Assembly: GCF_009828775.2 (NCBI RefSeq)
Contig: NZ_WTSY02000009.1
Span: 1-64,000 of the forward strand
Direction of reading: 5' to 3'
From: Erysipelothrix aquatica
GTDB lineage: Bacteria; Bacillota_I; Bacilli_A; Erysipelotrichales; Erysipelotrichaceae
DNA: 64,000 nucleotides
The notes under the pieces were generated by a model. The model was not told the DNA's origin and searched no databases. It saw only the letters and a program-made list of their open reading frames with translations. The translations under genes and the position numbers were made by a program. Of the stretch, positions 724 through 7,503 are shown piece by piece (within the stretch, counting starts at the first letter, position 1; every line of letters begins with the position of its first letter).

Positions 724-2302
724 ATTGCTTTTGATTGGCAAAGTAATTCTTACGATAGTCACCCGGTGTTTCTCCGGTTACCTTTTTGAAAGTCGTTGAG
801 AAGATAATCGGTGAGCTAAAGCCAACCATCTCAGAGATTTCATAAAACTTAAGACTTTCGTTTTCAATGAGTTCTTTGGCTTTTATAATACGAACCTCAT
901 TGATATACGAGACAACAGATTTTCCAATAATTTTGGGGAAGAGCCGACTCAAGTATGAAGGGGTAACATCGACATTTTCTGCGATGACGGTTAAATGAAT
1001 GTCTTCAAAATAATGATTTTTAATATACATCATTGCCTTATTTACGATGTAGTTGGATGAACTCGCAAGTTCCTTATCTTGCATTGGTAACATAAAATCT
1101 CGAAGGGTAGCTTTCATAACTTCCAAATTGGGCATGTTGGTTAAATTGAAATTTGGAAACTCAAGTTTCTTCTTCTCAATGAAAACATAGAAGGCGTTAT
1201 GTATCATTAGTGCAAATTGGTCATACGTTAAAATGATTTTTTCGTTGAATATTTGTTCAATATATTGATCCATTACAAGTTCAATCGAACCAAAGTTTTC
1301 TTGGTCGAAAGCAGCATGTAAATCACTCAAAAATTGTTGGCTTCCAGCCTGTTTAGAATCATTAATAAACATAAATTCTGTAAGGTTATGAACTGCTGCA
1401 TCATCTTTCAAACGGTGCATTTCATGTAAGGCCTCAAGGCTTTTGAATGTATCTTTGACGTCAGAAAGTGCAATAACTTCGTCAACATAGTAAATTGAAT
1501 TATGGATATCTAAGAATTTGCTAAGGCTCTTATGCAACTGATTGGCTTTGTCTTGAATTGTTTTCGTGAAGCTTCCAAAGAAATAAGAATTGTGCATGTT
1601 CAGTAGAATTGCATAAGCACCAGATTTCTCGGTAACGTGAAGGAACTTACACTCTTGAAATGTATTTTGAATTATGTTTTTTAAGACAAAGTCAAATTCG
1701 AGGATATCCCGCTCTGCGTAACGCTCAAGGACGTGGTCAAAATTTTCAATCGCAATAATCATGGGAACGTAATGTGGCATTTGTTGTGGTAAATCAATCA
1801 CCGATAAATTGGGGATGGTATTGCTTCGTTGAAACAACCAATGTTCAAATTGTGCGAGTGTTTCATTGTAGATTTCTTTAACTTGATATTCGGCAATGAG
1901 GGAGTCTTTCTGGCCATTAGTACGTCTTGCTTCATTTTCAGCACTTACGCCATCAATCATTTTGATAATATTATCGCGAGAAATATCCGTTTTAAGAATA
2001 TAGTCATGAATACCATAAAGCATTGCTTTTTTCACAATTTCAAATTCGTCATGAGCAGACATAACGACAACGCGTGTTGCGAAGTCTCGGGTTGACATCC
2101 ATTCAAGGACATCCAAACCTGTCATGATAGGCATCGTAATGTCCAAACACATGACGTCAATTTGTTGTTCCTGTAGCATGTCGACCGCCTCTTTACCATT
2201 GCTTGCGGTCAAAAACTCATATCCATGCTCTTCCCAGTTAACTAATATTTTTAGATACTGAAGGATTTTTTTTTCATCATCGACAAAGAGTATTTTCATC
2301 AT
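722..2302 (-). CDS. YesN-type response regulator with AraC-family DNA-binding domain
   Basis: This 526-residue regulator is the DNA-binding partner of the adjacent kinase. Residues 1-120 form a receiver domain, with phospho-acceptor Asp in DVMCLDITMP and the conserved Lys in YILKTD. A long middle region has no recognised motif. The last ~105 residues are a double helix-turn-helix AraC domain (AMMYIKNHYFEDIHLTVIAE through GFSSPIIFSTTFKKVTGETP). Its start overlaps the kinase stop by 4 bases, so the two are translationally coupled. The YesM/YesN family usually controls carbohydrate uptake. The nearest candidate target is the solute-binding lipoprotein gene at 4738, but no direct evidence ties them. 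Confidence 0.93.
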   Translation of the reverse strand: MMKILFVDDEKKILQYLKILVNWEEHGYEFLTASNGKEAVDMLQEQQIDVMCLDITMPIMTGLDVLEWMSTRDFATRVVVMSAHDEFEIVKKAMLYGIHDYILKTDISRDNIIKMIDGVSAENEARRTNGQKDSLIAEYQVKEIYNETLAQFEHWLFQRSNTIPNLSVIDLPQQMPHYVPMIIAIENFDHVLERYAERDILEFDFVLKNIIQNTFQECKFLHVTEKSGAYAILLNMHNSYFFGSFTKTIQDKANQLHKSLSKFLDIHNSIYYVDEVIALSDVKDTFKSLEALHEMHRLKDDAAVHNLTEFMFINDSKQAGSQQFLSDLHAAFDQENFGSIELVMDQYIEQIFNEKIILTYDQFALMIHNAFYVFIEKKKLEFPNFNLTNMPNLEVMKATLRDFMLPMQDKELASSSNYIVNKAMMYIKNHYFEDIHLTVIAENVDVTPSYLSRLFPKIIGKSVVSYINEVRIIKAKELIENESLKFYEISEMVGFSSPIIFSTTFKKVTGETPGDYRKNYFANQKQ

Positions 2303-3996
2303 TTAATGTCCTCCAAGGGTATATGAATCGTGAATTGCGTATAGCTTTGTGCATCACTTTCAATCTCTAAGGCTGCCACTTCACCATAATGTTGAATTAG
2401 GCGTTGGTTAAGATTGTTTAAGCCGACTTGAGTACTCGAACTGTTGCGTTTGCGCGTTAACGCCTCAAGATTGGTGGTCGGTACACCTTTTCCATTATCA
2501 CGCACTTTAATAAGCATTTCATGATCGTACTTCGTGATTGAGATTTGAATCACTTGATTGTTTGATTCGTTGGTAAATGCATGAATATATGCATTTTCGA
2601 TGAGTGGTTGAAGAATGAATTTCATGATTTCAATATCAAAGGTTTCTTCGTCGATGTCATAGTCAATATCAACTTCATCAGAATAACGAAGCCTCATGAT
2701 TTTGATATAACTTTCGAGTAATTCGAGTTCTTCAGCAACGGTATTTGTACTACTATCATTTTTGAGAATTGATTTTAGATAATTAACAAGCGCTTCGATT
2801 GAGCCTGCAAGTTCATAGGCAGAAATTGACTCAGCCTTCCATTTTAATGCATTCAGCGTATTGTATAAGAAATGTGGATTCACTTTGGTTAATAAGATTT
2901 CGTAGCGTAAATCACTCTTATCAATTTCTGCTTGGCGAATGTCTTCCACTTGAATTTCGAGTTGTTCCATCAGGCTATTGAAGGCATCACTGAGGTCTTG
3001 GAATTCCCCCTCAAGTTGCGGACTTCTAACAGCTAGATCACCATCCATGGCTTCACGCATATCATTTTTAAGGCTAAGGACAGGGGAGGCAATTGAATCA
3101 GTCACTTTGGTGATGTTACGCATCACAATGTAAATTAGTAGAATAAACCCTGTTAATAAGATAAGAGATTGGATCGCAAGCACGGTAAACATCTTGCTAT
3201 AGTTGGTGATGTAAGAGAAATAAAATCCAGGATAAGTTCCTTCAAACTCGGTAATTACAAAGAAGTCTGCGGTATTGGGGACTTTAACAATTTCCCATTC
3301 AACTAAAGAATATTGTAAGTTCTCATCACCAATTCCTATAATAATAAAGTCGTCGGGATTAATTAAAGCATTGATGGCAAAGTTCTCAAGTTGTTTCATA
3401 TCAACATCCAATTTTAGAACGCCAAGCGTGTTTTGAGTTATTGGATCATTGATGCGTTGGACGACTGAGAGATTCTTACAATCATCACAACTCTTATCAA
3501 TATGTAAGAAGTAAGATTGTTGGTTTAATGCTTTTTGATACCAGTCTGAGGTTATTGCGTCCGCGTAAGTTCCGGTATCAGCTTCGGCAAAATCGAGTGC
3601 ACTGCGATATACTTCTTCACGGTTTGCTGGAATCAGTGACACGTTAGAAATAGAAATATTGGCATTTAAAATTCGATAACGGAGTTGTTGATTCATCTGA
3701 ATTGTATCGGTTTGTTTAGCCCAGGCATCATTGCTATAAACGGTAGCGTCCTGGCGAAGTATATCCATCATTTCTTGACTTGCATATGGTGCTTCGAGGG
3801 ATTTGATAGACTGGCGAAGACTGGTATCAAGCATGTTGTCGATCTGATGCAAACTAATATTACTGGTTTGTGTAATCCGCTCGGTGAAAGTTTTAATAAT
3901 CGTATAGAATGACAGAACAAAAACCAAGGTCAAAATTGGGATAATCAAAAGCAGTTGTTTTTTAATAATATCATGTTTAATTGAATTTTTTTTCAT
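2299..3996 (-). CDS. YesM-type sensor histidine kinase
   Basis: This 565-residue membrane kinase has a first membrane segment at about 14-33, an extracellular sensor region of ~235 residues, a second membrane segment at about 270-293 and a HAMP linker at ~295-350. A His_kinase domain follows with the phospho-acceptor His375 in KVNPHFLYNTLNALKW, then an ATPase domain with IENAYIHAF and DNGKGVP motifs. This is the normal length and order for the YesM/LytS-like class. It is co-transcribed with the response regulator at 722-2302. The extracellular region carries a CDDC pair at about 170-173, which is unusual and could form a disulfide. A TATAAT box on the minus strand (4131-4136) may be its promoter. 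Confidence 0.93.
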   Translation of the reverse strand: MKKNSIKHDIIKKQLLLIIPILTLVFVLSFYTIIKTFTERITQTSNISLHQIDNMLDTSLRQSIKSLEAPYASQEMMDILRQDATVYSNDAWAKQTDTIQMNQQLRYRILNANISISNVSLIPANREEVYRSALDFAEADTGTYADAITSDWYQKALNQQSYFLHIDKSCDDCKNLSVVQRINDPITQNTLGVLKLDVDMKQLENFAINALINPDDFIIIGIGDENLQYSLVEWEIVKVPNTADFFVITEFEGTYPGFYFSYITNYSKMFTVLAIQSLILLTGFILLIYIVMRNITKVTDSIASPVLSLKNDMREAMDGDLAVRSPQLEGEFQDLSDAFNSLMEQLEIQVEDIRQAEIDKSDLRYEILLTKVNPHFLYNTLNALKWKAESISAYELAGSIEALVNYLKSILKNDSSTNTVAEELELLESYIKIMRLRYSDEVDIDYDIDEETFDIEIMKFILQPLIENAYIHAFTNESNNQVIQISITKYDHEMLIKVRDNGKGVPTTNLEALTRKRNSSSTQVGLNNLNQRLIQHYGEVAALEIESDAQSYTQFTIHIPLEDIK

Positions 3997-4183
3997 GGGT
4001 TTACATGGGGTGGCGATTGTATATCGTAATCTCCCAAGGCCTTCCTATTTTGATTGTGTAACGACGTCTGTGATTGCAATTTGGGGGCAAGGTTGACGTC
4101 ATAAGTATAAAGTCTTGAAATACTATTCACATTATAACACAGTACACATTTTGGTGGGAATTAGACCAACACGAATGAAGGAC

Positions 4184-4220
4184 AAAAAAATACCAAGGAT
4201 ATAGGTTGTATCCTTGGTAT
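4184..4220 (-). terminator. intrinsic terminator of the structured RNA
   Basis: A perfect 12-bp stem (4190-4201 with 4209-4220) and a 7-nt loop are followed on the minus strand by seven Ts (4184-4190). It points away from the lipoprotein gene and toward the kinase gene, so it ends a minus-strand transcript that starts in the 4523-4530 area. Confidence 0.9.
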
Positions 4221-4523
4221 CTTTTGTGCTTGCACACTTGTAAATACGATATCTGTTCTTCATTGAAAGGCGATCTGGTAGGAAACCAGATATTCCATAT
4301 GAATGTTAGCCCCCCCGACCCAACAATCATTGGTGTGTAGAATGTCAATCGTGCTTAGATTATGTTCAAGTGTCCGACGCATTCGATGTAGATTTAGCAT
4401 AACCTTGTATGATATGTTGCAAGGTGGAGTCGATAAACATTAGCCCCCCCGACCTAATGCTTATTAAACTAGTAATTCACATCATGATATGTTGATGTGT
4501 GTGCTAGCTGTCTTCTAAATCTA
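4184..4523 (-). ncRNA. candidate structured RNA with two G7 loops (unrecognised)
   Basis: The minus strand can fold into an ordered structure. A 10-bp closing helix (4515-4524 with 4388-4397) encloses three hairpins: 4478-4484/4493-4499, 4438-4443/4454-4459 and 4402-4407/4420-4425. Outside it lie a further hairpin at 4304-4309/4320-4325, one at 4273-4279/4285-4291, and a terminator at 4190-4220. Hairpins 4438-4459 and 4304-4325 have identical 10-nt loops (minus strand GUCGGGGGGG) on different stems. An 11-mer (minus CAACAUAUCAU) recurs in the other two loops, at 4484-4494 and 4409-4419. Two stem positions pair as G-U only if the minus strand is the RNA. No open reading frame of note lies inside. 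I do not recognise the family. It could be a free RNA or a terminated leader of the kinase operon. Confidence 0.6.
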
Positions 4524-4528
4524 CTTAA

Positions 4529-4557
4529 ATTATAGTTAATATAATGCGTTTTGTGCC
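4529..4557 (-). promoter_or_regulatory. putative promoter of the structured RNA
   Basis: A perfect TATAAT on the minus strand lies at 4529-4534. Its expected start point is around 4522-4524, exactly where the closing helix of the RNA begins. The -35 region at 4552-4557 (GGCACA, 17-bp spacing) is weak, so the promoter is supported mainly by the -10 box and its position. Confidence 0.5.
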
Positions 4558-4737
4558 CCCTTTAATAATTGCATTTTCTTAATTATTTTTGCACTTTCAA
4601 GTAAGAAATATATAGAATATTTGTCTAAGGACACAATTTATACAGAAATGACAAAATTCATTAATGAAGTGCAAATATAGAGAATAAAAGGAAGCAACTA
4701 TCTATATTATACTTTTTGTAGAAGATGGAGATGTGCC

Positions 4738-5949
4738 ATGCGAAAGAAAATCATATCTTTATTTGTTGTACTGATGTTGATCACTACGGGATGTTCAACA
4801 GGCAAGAAAAATGAAGATAAAGAAAGTATAATCTCTGTTGCGTATTGGGGAGACGTAAGAGAAGATTTAGTATATCAAACTGCAATTGAAGGCATCGAAG
4901 ATGTGGTGCCAAATACGCGTGTGGAGTTACATAAATATGAAAGTGCGACTGCATTTTGGAGTGCAATGGTTAATCGGGATGAGAGCGTCAAAGTTCCTGA
5001 TGTTATTTCACTCACGAATGAAAATCATTTGGAATACATTGAGGCAGGTTTTTTGTTGCCTTTGGATGAATTTAATATCAACTTGGAAACTTCAAAGCCT
5101 TCTGCAGTGAATGTATGGAATTATAAGGGCAAACAATATGGAATCCCGTTAACTGCTTCACCGGCGGTCTTGGCGATTAATCGTGATATGTGGGATGCGT
5201 ATAATTTAGGTGCTTATCCAAAAACATGGAACGATGTTCGCTCAATTTCCAAGGAAGTTGAAAAATATGGTGTTGAGGGCTTAATTATTAATACAGAAGA
5301 TACCTACCATCTAACGCAATACATGAATTCATTTGGAGGCGGGTGGCGTTTTGGATCCGCAATTAATTCGGAAGCGAATCGTGAGGCATTAACCTACATT
5401 TTTACGATGTTTGACGAGGGACTAGCTATGAACCCAAAAGATGAAGGATATACGTGGGATGGTGCCGCCTTTGCAGATGGTGCCGCCCTCATGACTACGG
5501 CCGGAACATGGTACATTGGGCTTCTACAAGATGAAGCGCCAGATATGAACTACGATCTAATCCCCATGCCATCACGAACTGGCCATGAGAACGGAACGCT
5601 GTATTCTAATGCCCTCGCTATTCGTAAGGATTCAAAAGATCCTCAAAAAGCTGCACAAGTTGCACAGTACATGGCCCGCCCACTGTGCCAAAAAGAATTT
5701 GCGCGAGTTATTGGATCTGCTCCCGCAGACATTGAAGAGAATAATGACTATTATCAAGAGAATACCCATATGGAGCATTTACAGTCACGCTCTGCAAATG
5801 CTGAACCATTCGCATACCCTAATCAATCGACACAATTTCAAAAGAACTTAAGTGACGAAGTTGAGGCAGTCATTTATGCACCTAAACCCACTGACAACAG
5901 CGCCCGGGCACACGAAATTTTAAGTCGATTAGAGCGTGCATACAAATAG
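4738..5949 (+). CDS. extracellular solute-binding lipoprotein, family 1 (sugar type)
   Basis: This 403-residue protein has a lipoprotein signal peptide ending in the lipobox LITTGC, so it is expected to be anchored to the outer face of the membrane. The mature part has the layout of family 1 solute-binding proteins: AYWGD near the start, GIPLTASPAVLAINRDMWD, then AALMTTAGTWYIG. Such proteins deliver sugars, oligosaccharides or polyols to ABC permeases. No permease or ATPase gene is adjacent, so it either feeds a transporter encoded elsewhere or acts as ligand sensor for the neighbouring YesM-type kinase. The substrate cannot be told from sequence. Confidence 0.88.
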   Translation: MRKKIISLFVVLMLITTGCSTGKKNEDKESIISVAYWGDVREDLVYQTAIEGIEDVVPNTRVELHKYESATAFWSAMVNRDESVKVPDVISLTNENHLEYIEAGFLLPLDEFNINLETSKPSAVNVWNYKGKQYGIPLTASPAVLAINRDMWDAYNLGAYPKTWNDVRSISKEVEKYGVEGLIINTEDTYHLTQYMNSFGGGWRFGSAINSEANREALTYIFTMFDEGLAMNPKDEGYTWDGAAFADGAALMTTAGTWYIGLLQDEAPDMNYDLIPMPSRTGHENGTLYSNALAIRKDSKDPQKAAQVAQYMARPLCQKEFARVIGSAPADIEENNDYYQENTHMEHLQSRSANAEPFAYPNQSTQFQKNLSDEVEAVIYAPKPTDNSARAHEILSRLERAYK

Positions 5950-6009: not shown

Positions 6010-6093
6010 TGTAAGTGGGAAACAGGTTTGTGAGGGAACGTCATTATCGTACAAACAAACATAATAAATTACGCTTCGAAGTCTCTTCGACCA

Positions 6094-6122
6094 TTGACAA
6101 AACACACCAAAATAGCTATAAT
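6094..6122 (+). promoter_or_regulatory. consensus sigma-A promoter upstream of glg
   Basis: TTGACA (6094-6099), a 17-bp spacer and TATAAT (6117-6122) match the consensus in all 12 positions. The predicted start is near 6129. It drives a transcript that meets a terminator about 77 nt later. Confidence 0.85.
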
Positions 6123-6128
6123 TTAATC

Positions 6129-6205
6129 ATAAGTTAGAGCTAACCATTCAAAGTTATTTTTTTAGTGAAGTACCATTAAAAAGTAATCTTTGGGTGGTTT
6201 TTTTT
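6129..6205 (+). ncRNA. short terminated transcript or leader upstream of glgC
   Basis: From the consensus promoter to the T-run at 6198-6205 the sequence is almost one long hairpin. The outer arms are 6142-6153 and 6188-6199 (with G-U pairs). The inner arms, near 6159-6168 and 6173-6182, close on a small loop, and eight Ts follow. It contains no start codon with a ribosome binding site. It is either an independent ~77-nt RNA or an attenuated leader of the glycogen operon. A second promoter nearer glgC (6279-6306) argues that the operon does not depend on it. Confidence 0.5.
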
Positions 6206-6278
6206 CATATTTAGGCGATAACTTAGTGTTCTTATCAATGAAAAATGCTGGCGCAATATCTGTTAATTTGTTGGGAAG

Positions 6279-6306
6279 TTGACATATATTAAACGTAGAT
6301 AATATT
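6279..6306 (+). promoter_or_regulatory. putative glgC promoter
   Basis: A perfect TTGACA lies at 6279-6284. TAATAT (6300-6305) or AATATT (6301-6306) follows at 15-16 bp. A start near 6312 would give a ~55-nt leader that contains a run of seven Gs (6320-6326). Confidence 0.5.
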
Positions 6307-6366
6307 CAAAATATGCTATGGGGGGGTATATGTTGCTTTTTACTGTGGACTACAGGAGGAAGTAGT

Positions 6367-7503
6367 ATGAAACATGAAATGGTAGCAATGATTTTGGCGG
6401 GAGGGCAAGGAACGCGTTTGGGTAAATTAACCAAAGAAACTGCGAAGCCTGCTGTTCCGTTTGGTGGCAAGTATCGAATTATTGATTTTACATTAAGTAA
6501 CTGTGCGAATTCAAATGTTTTTGATGTGGGGGTAGTAACACAATACCAACCACTTGAGCTGAATGAGCATATCGGAAATGGGGCATCGTGGGGACTCTCA
6601 CGACGTAATAGTAGCGCAAAAATACTACAACCTTTCTCAAGTCAAGATGGCGAAAAATGGTTCCGTGGAACTGCTAATGCAATTTATCAAAATATCAGTT
6701 ATATCGATTCTAAAAATCCGGATTATGTCTTGGTATTGTCGGGGGATCATATCTATAAAATGGACTATGAAGCGATGCTTGATTTCCATAAAGAAAACGA
6801 AGCAGCATTAACGGTCGCCGTTATCGATGTTCCTTTAGAAGAAGCTTCACGTTTTGGCATCATGGAAACAGATACCTCAGGTCGTATCATTGAATTTCAC
6901 GAAAAACCAGAGGAACCTAAAGGTACACTTGCGTCGATGGGAATTTATATCTTTGATTGGCCTAAATTGCGTGCTATGTTGGTTCATGATCAAGCAACAG
7001 AACGTAGTATGGAAGACTTTGGTAAAAATGTTATTCCGGCATACATTGCGAATGGAGAGCGTGTCTTTGCGTACGCCTTTGAGGGATATTGGAAAGATGT
7101 CGGAACCATTGAGAGCTTATGGGAAGCGAACATGGAATTCTTGGATTTGGATCACAGCTTAAATATACGGGATAGCCACTGGCCAATTTATACGAAGGAT
7201 ACCATATCACCACCCCAATACATTGCTAAAAATGCGTTTGTGAAGCACGCAATGATTGGTGACGGATGCTATATCGATGGTACTGTCCAACACTCTGTAT
7301 TATCGCAAGATGTTAAAGTGGGTGCTGATAGTACAGTCTTGCAATCAATTATTATGGCAGGGGCGTCCATTGGCAAAAATGTCAATGTTGAATATGCAAT
7401 TGTCGGTGAACATGCAGTGATTGCGGATGGATCTCAAGTCATCGGAAGTAAAGATGCGATTCAAGTAATTGGTTATCACGAAGTTGTGGGGGTAAAGAAA
7501 TAA
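6367..7503 (+). CDS. glgC: glucose-1-phosphate adenylyltransferase, catalytic subunit
   Basis: This enzyme makes ADP-glucose from ATP and glucose-1-phosphate, the committed step of bacterial glycogen synthesis. The start at 6367 is chosen for the ACAGGAGGAAG site just upstream and gives 378 residues, the usual length. An upstream in-frame ATG at 6313 lacks a ribosome binding site. The nucleotidyltransferase motif [12 protein letters not shown] and [18 protein letters not shown] lie at the N-terminus, with GTANAIYQN and [10 protein letters not shown] in the core. The C-terminal ~100 residues form a left-handed beta-helix typical of allosteric control. It is first in glgC-glgD-glgB-glgA and ends 1 base into glgD. 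Confidence 0.97.

Follow-up and report, generated by a model that had tools for sequence, protein, structure and literature searches.

The small RNA RepG of Helicobacter pylori pairs, through a C/U-rich loop in its terminator, with homopolymeric G-repeats in the leaders of mRNAs (PMC8295292). CJnc190 of Campylobacter jejuni likewise presents a C/U-rich loop to a G-rich ribosome site, and is itself countered by an antagonist RNA, CJnc180 (PMC8687705), while the LhrC sRNAs of Listeria use C-rich loops to bind a cell-wall adhesin mRNA at its G-rich ribosome site (PMC4132741). Small RNAs that act on one another are known from Staphylococcus aureus, where SprY titrates RNAIII and RsaI binds RsaG, RsaI being paired with RsaG, RsaD and RsaE (reviewed in PMC9266662).

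The locus described here, on the minus strand of a 64,000-nt stretch of Erysipelothrix aquatica DNA (the window), would stand on the opposite, G-rich side of such systems. Its likeness to RepG lies in a C7 element upstream of copZ and in G-tract leaders, not in the window RNA itself (PMC8295292), which is ~340 nt long, carries two G loops and has no known homology to RepG; in the literature on RepG that we examined, we came across no antagonist with a G loop. Whereas CJnc180 is antisense to CJnc190, two separate loci are involved here and only the loops would match (PMC8687705). The S. aureus pairs are similar in that one sRNA, encoded on its own, titrates or modulates others in a Gram-positive bacterium of low GC content, and RsaI is tied to sugar metabolism, like the neighbours of the window RNA (PMC9266662). 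In contrast to these sRNAs, the window RNA matches no Rfam family and has a larger fold with two identical loop pairs. LhrC offers a parallel to the proposed C7 RNA and its surface-protein targets (PMC4132741), but it is a multicopy C-rich sRNA, of which the window RNA would be the mirror image, a G-rich decoy. The features of the locus are as follows.

722-2302: response regulator gene, beside the kinase gene
2299-3996, minus strand: YesM-type sensor histidine kinase gene (Pfam His_kinase, HATPase_c)
4131-4160, minus strand: a distinct promoter of the extended -10 type, TTCCCA-18-TATAAT with TG, lying between RNA and kinase gene (promoter scan)
4184-4524, minus strand: predicted structured RNA of ~340 nt, entire transcript (fold energy; E. 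anatis copy; no Rfam match)
4184-4225, minus strand: intrinsic terminator with a seven-T run (sequence; fold; identity to E. anatis collapses just beyond)
4234-4373, minus strand: domain 2, with a long-range closing helix of 4361-4373 and 4234-4246 (fold; complementarity)
4273-4291, minus strand: hairpin E, whose pair 4290/4274 reads U-A in the window but C-G in E. anatis (between-species comparison)
4299-4330, minus strand: hairpin D, the second G7 hairpin, loop GUCGGGGGGG at 4310-4319, a diverged duplicate of hairpin B (hairpin alignment)
4388-4397, minus strand: 3' arm of the 10-bp closing helix of domain 1 (complementarity; fold)
4402-4425, minus strand: hairpin C, with the second CAACAUAUCAU copy in its loop (4409-4419) (fold; repeat search)
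4433-4464, minus strand: hairpin B, the first G7 hairpin, loop GUCGGGGGGG at 4444-4453 (fold; hairpin alignment)
4467-4509, minus strand: hairpin A, with the first CAACAUAUCAU copy (4484-4494) (fold; repeat search)
4515-4524, minus strand: 5' arm of the closing helix of domain 1 (100% complementary; fold)
4529-4534, minus strand: TATAAT -10 box (sequence; identical in E. anatis)
4738-5949, plus strand: sugar-type solute-binding lipoprotein gene (Pfam SBP_bac_8)

The minus-strand RNA folds with a minimum free energy of -104.6 kcal/mol, compared to -69.2 in shuffles (z = -7.55). The plus strand gives z = -4.26 in the same shuffle comparison, some structure being expected there because stems remain stems on both strands. 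The original prediction, made from the sequence, had placed a minus-strand TATAAT box at 4529-4534 ahead of a 10-bp helix enclosing three hairpins, followed by two further hairpins and a terminator with seven Ts. The box is present, the helix (4515-4524 with 4388-4397) is perfect and is recovered by folding, and sequence and fold agree on the two hairpins and on the terminator, whose arms (4185-4201 and 4209-4225) are 94% complementary and which has a T7 run. Equally sound was the claim that two hairpins with differing stems share the loop GUCGGGGGGG: the 64-kb window holds exactly two copies of GTCGGGGGGG (4444-4453 and 4310-4319) where 0.01 occurrences are expected, both of them as a hairpin loop. 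The two G7 tracts are separated by 124 nt, a distance that would make an intramolecular G-quadruplex less likely. The central four Gs of each loop are unpaired at a level of at least 0.99, and a weak 2-bp helix lies within the rest of the loop. Two further hairpins, on mutually unrelated stems, carry the twin CAACAUAUCAU loop sequences. These had been read as a shared 11-nt loop, and the repeat is real (CAACATATCAT, at 4484-4494 and 4409-4419), although some of it is base-paired in the first hairpin. Each pair of identical loops sits on unrelated or diverged stems.

The choice of strand had been rested on two G-U pairs. One, 4321/4308, is still G-U in Erysipelothrix anatis, whereas the other, 4460/4437, is G-U in the window genome and an A-C mismatch there; the T-run, the -10 box and the fold energies are better grounds for the strand assignment. 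We hold the locus to encode, very probably, a genuine structured RNA of its own on the minus strand, with predicted transcription.

The best evidence for more than chance comes from the internal duplicate hairpins. B and D are a diverged 25-nt duplicate with 84% identity. When the four hairpins, two per species, are aligned, 3 of 11 stem pairs have changed on both sides (A-U/G-C, C-G/U-A and A-U/G-C), one has changed on a single side and another lacks pairing in three of the four hairpins, while the G7 loop is constant save that the second hairpin of E. anatis has one G more (G8). The earlier statement that the stems vary and the loops are kept is therefore borne out by compensated pairs. As a control, shifting the pairing by 1 to 2 columns abolishes the two-sided changes and leaves 20-36% of cells paired instead of 93%; a shift of +3 leaves one pair with a two-sided change. 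Covariation between species comprises, for two species, a single double change, in which the hairpin E pair 4290/4274 goes from U-A to C-G, alongside two pairs altered on one side. The compensated stems around an identical G7 loop, plus the second identical loop pair, suggest selection centred on the loops.

The closest relative among the genomes searched is E. anatis (NZ_WTSX01000001), whose copy of the RNA is about 95% identical (95.5%), compared with an average of 85% for coding genes, and has the same fold (z = -6.61). A search with the Rfam 15 covariance models (4227 families) gave no match in the window at the gathering score, and at E <= 10 the best was a chance match of a miRNA model on the plus strand (E = 7.4), in agreement with the earlier view that no known family has this design. 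A double-loop pattern turned up no third copy among 245 genomes of the family, and a covariance model of domain 1 identified only the two species among 316 genomes of the order. Three weak matches to that model were rejected; none has the G7 hairpin, and one consists of the end of a coding gene and another terminator. Nor was there a blastn match among plasmids and phages, or a match to a G7-loop plus AU-loop pattern in viral contigs. In the same contigs, one exact match to the hairpin pattern, within a phage coding gene, and 25 matches to a double-G6 pattern, mostly GC-rich or simple repeats, were judged to be chance. Across 84,980 species, with one genome each, two hairpin copies occur only in the E. 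anatis record; eight single hairpin matches in unrelated groups, one of which was inspected for a second copy, were taken as chance.

As the flanking kinase and lipoprotein genes have close orthologues within the genus only in the same two species, the whole locus is lineage-specific. A limited literature search found no description of the RNA and no relevant small-RNA study in Erysipelothrix. The RNA gene thus appears to be undescribed, and even without a mechanism it adds a well-formed RNA gene that Rfam is missing.

The high identity to E. anatis extends over a block from 4183 to about 4929, which takes in the RNA, the 200-nt gap upstream of it (97%) and ~190 nt of the lipoprotein gene; on the other side, beyond the terminator, identity in the gap is ~70%. 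Within the first 64 codons of the lipoprotein gene there are 5 silent and 5 replacement changes relative to E. anatis, while in later parts of the gene silent changes far outnumber replacement changes. Recombination would leave a tract of this appearance and may explain part of the conservation. Because the block runs into the lipoprotein gene, evolutionary rate alone is no proof of function; that its left edge coincides with the terminator is nevertheless suggestive. It could then be supposed that no functional RNA exists and that inverted repeats happen to lie within a recombined intergenic segment, as the restriction to two sister species and the extension of the shared block past the RNA would allow. 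We consider this highly improbable, since z is about -7 in both copies, the block edge falls at the terminator and the duplicate hairpins are compensated around identical loops.

Two other segments were noted. Between the RNA promoter and the lipoprotein gene, the gap shared with E. anatis contains a 23-nt imperfect inverted repeat (4574-4596 and 4667-4689), a putative site that a regulator could bind. Further downstream, the glgC leader and the first part of glgC (6018-6738, plus strand) are almost identical to E. anatis, reaching 100% at 6300-6499, with zero amino-acid changes in the first 256 codons. The glgC leader contains TTGACA/TATAAT around 6095-6122 and, near 6205, the T8 that ends a possible attenuator hairpin. 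It has no Rfam match, and the segment may either have a regulatory function as a leader or have been recombined.

The RNA lies on the strand of the kinase gene, 188 nt upstream of it, and has the order of a leader, with a large folded 5' part and then a terminator. These features would fit a cis-acting, riboswitch-like leader or attenuator of the kinase/response-regulator operon, working by signal-dependent read-through of the terminator. We regard such a leader as improbable. The extended -10 promoter (4131-4160) lies past the terminator, and the ~48 nt around it are identical in E. anatis within a gap that is otherwise poorly conserved (~70% identical as a whole). Moreover, no antiterminator alternative was seen, the terminator being present in both the minimum-energy and the centroid folds. 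The kinase therefore probably has its own promoter, and the RNA would be a separate unit. At the RNA itself, there is no good -35 element at 16-18 nt from the TATAAT box and the box is absent from the consensus promoter scan. The RNA may therefore need an activator, for which the neighbouring response regulator would be a natural candidate.

A possible partner for the G7 loops is found at the copper locus, where a putative RNA of ~55 nt lies upstream of copZ.

Window genome C6 L156:1434-1528 and E. anatis C11:21680-21825: copZ-upstream C7 element (sequence)

Its terminator hairpin, a strong one, has the form CGCGAACAC-AACCCCCCC-GUGUUCGCG-UUUUU, with AACCCCCCC as the loop, and TTTGCA-17-TATAAT lies shortly upstream. 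The downstream copZ/copA copper operon seems to have a promoter of its own, with boxes there that we take to be CopY-like. The two kinds of loop are complementary, with 7 Gs facing 7 Cs, both within hairpin loops, although each G loop has its weak 2-bp helix; the isolated G7 loop-C7 loop duplex is worth -16.5 kcal/mol. By DNA search, the C7 element is present in 2 of 13 genomes of the genus, the same two that have the window RNA, and was not found in the 11 other members; the nearest copZ locus of another species has a different terminator at that place. As the two species are sisters, this co-occurrence is weak evidence, and as the copper locus is uniformly 95-97% identical between them, conservation of the C7 loop says little. 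The element was found by a targeted look, after the fact, and the chance of a C7 terminator loop is, by a rough hand estimate, a few per cent per genome.

In the reading that we prefer, the window RNA would be a stand-alone, trans-acting RNA whose two G7 loops serve as kissing sites for a C-rich RNA, the likeliest partner being the putative C7-loop RNA upstream of copZ. The latter would act in a RepG-like manner on the mRNAs of surface proteins, at their G-tract leaders and Shine-Dalgarno sequences, and the window RNA, binding it at two loops in what could be a very stable kissing complex, would relieve that control as an antagonist or sponge. We infer the transcription of both RNAs, their pairing, and the regulation and its direction from sequence elements that are themselves observed. 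To a RepG-like C7 RNA on G-tract leaders with the window RNA as its two-site antagonist we assign a probability of roughly 35%. The figure is held down by the post hoc choice of partner, the co-occurrence in sister species, the presence of G-tract sites throughout the genus, and the twin CAACAUAUCAU loops, which the kissing model does not account for. The fuller version is doubtful, namely a two-part G7/C7 kissing-loop circuit in which the C7 RNA silences or tunes surface-protein mRNAs via slippage-prone G-tract ribosome sites and the two-G7-loop RNA at the sugar-sensing locus is a dedicated bivalent decoy.

If the antagonist model is right, the window RNA works like known sRNA antagonists, with an unusual anatomy of two identical loop pairs, one of them G-tracts. 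RNA control via homopolymeric G-repeats, as in Helicobacter, would then extend to a Gram-positive genus and gain a decoy built for the purpose, displaying the same G7 loop twice, and sugar sensing, copper and surface-protein expression would be linked in animal-associated bacteria.

The G7 loops, together with the twin CAACAUAUCAU loops, might instead be used directly, on C-rich mRNA sites or an RNA-binding protein, with no part played by the copZ-upstream RNA. Duplicated loops that are independent of their stems suit any bivalent recognition element, and both genomes have some C6-8 tracts outside genes. Against this, no sense-oriented ACCCCCC among the sites examined falls at a start codon, and several of the intergenic C-tracts are the complement of G-tracts 5-8 nt upstream of start codons. 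Complements of the AU-rich CAACAUAUCAU loops elsewhere showed no pattern, several being apparently intragenic. We hold such direct use to be somewhat unlikely, though almost as probable as the antagonist model.

G7/C7 tracts are rare, at about 17 per genome, and fall into Shine-Dalgarno positions, an adhesin leader hairpin, the C7 terminator loop and the interior of coding genes. Tracts of G6-8 lying 5-8 nt upstream of ATG occupy the Shine-Dalgarno position mostly of large secreted or surface proteins, whose domains include List_Bact_rpt (Listeria-Bacteroides repeats), DUF285/MucBP and beta-helix repeats. Among the pattern matches, these tracts and the adhesin leader hairpin are the possible targets of the C7 RNA. 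Summed over 13 Erysipelothrix genomes, GGGGGG-N4-9-ATG occurs 170 times compared to 62 for the reversed control, an excess of ~2.7-fold. These ribosome-binding positions are also found in members of the genus without a detected C7 element, and so do not depend on the G7/C7 pair.

As G7-spacer-ATG is a ribosome-binding arrangement in the genus, the G7 tracts of the window RNA could themselves be Shine-Dalgarno sequences, making the RNA a small mRNA or a dual-function RNA. The first tract does precede CTA-ATG and a frame of 24 codons, MFIDSTLQHIIQGYAKSTSNASDT, which is open in both species, and a G7-TAT-ATG leader frame precedes glgC. However, all three differences between the species in the 24-codon frame are non-synonymous, and the second G7 of E. 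anatis is kept although no start codon lies within 15 nt of it. Furthermore, a coding role leaves the compensated stems and the twin AU-rich loops unaccounted for, and we hold it to be quite improbable.

The G-tract ribosome sites may be prone to slippage. Tract lengths vary between the sister species, as G6/G7 (L188/L183) and G7/G8; under the antagonist model such differences mean that the strength of control could drift by slippage.

Two leaders with G7 tracts were also observed. Upstream of glgC, the G7-TAT-ATG at 6320-6366 (plus strand) opens an 11-codon leader frame that ends just upstream of the glgC start and overlaps its AGGAGG, an arrangement resembling translational coupling. In the leader of a SpaA-type (SpaA/ice-binding-like) adhesin (L174 around 1470-1550; L167 in E. 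anatis), a hairpin has a G7 loop holding AAAGGAGGGGGGG, which is Shine-Dalgarno-like and lies about 45 nt upstream of the real start, and its stem is preserved in both species.
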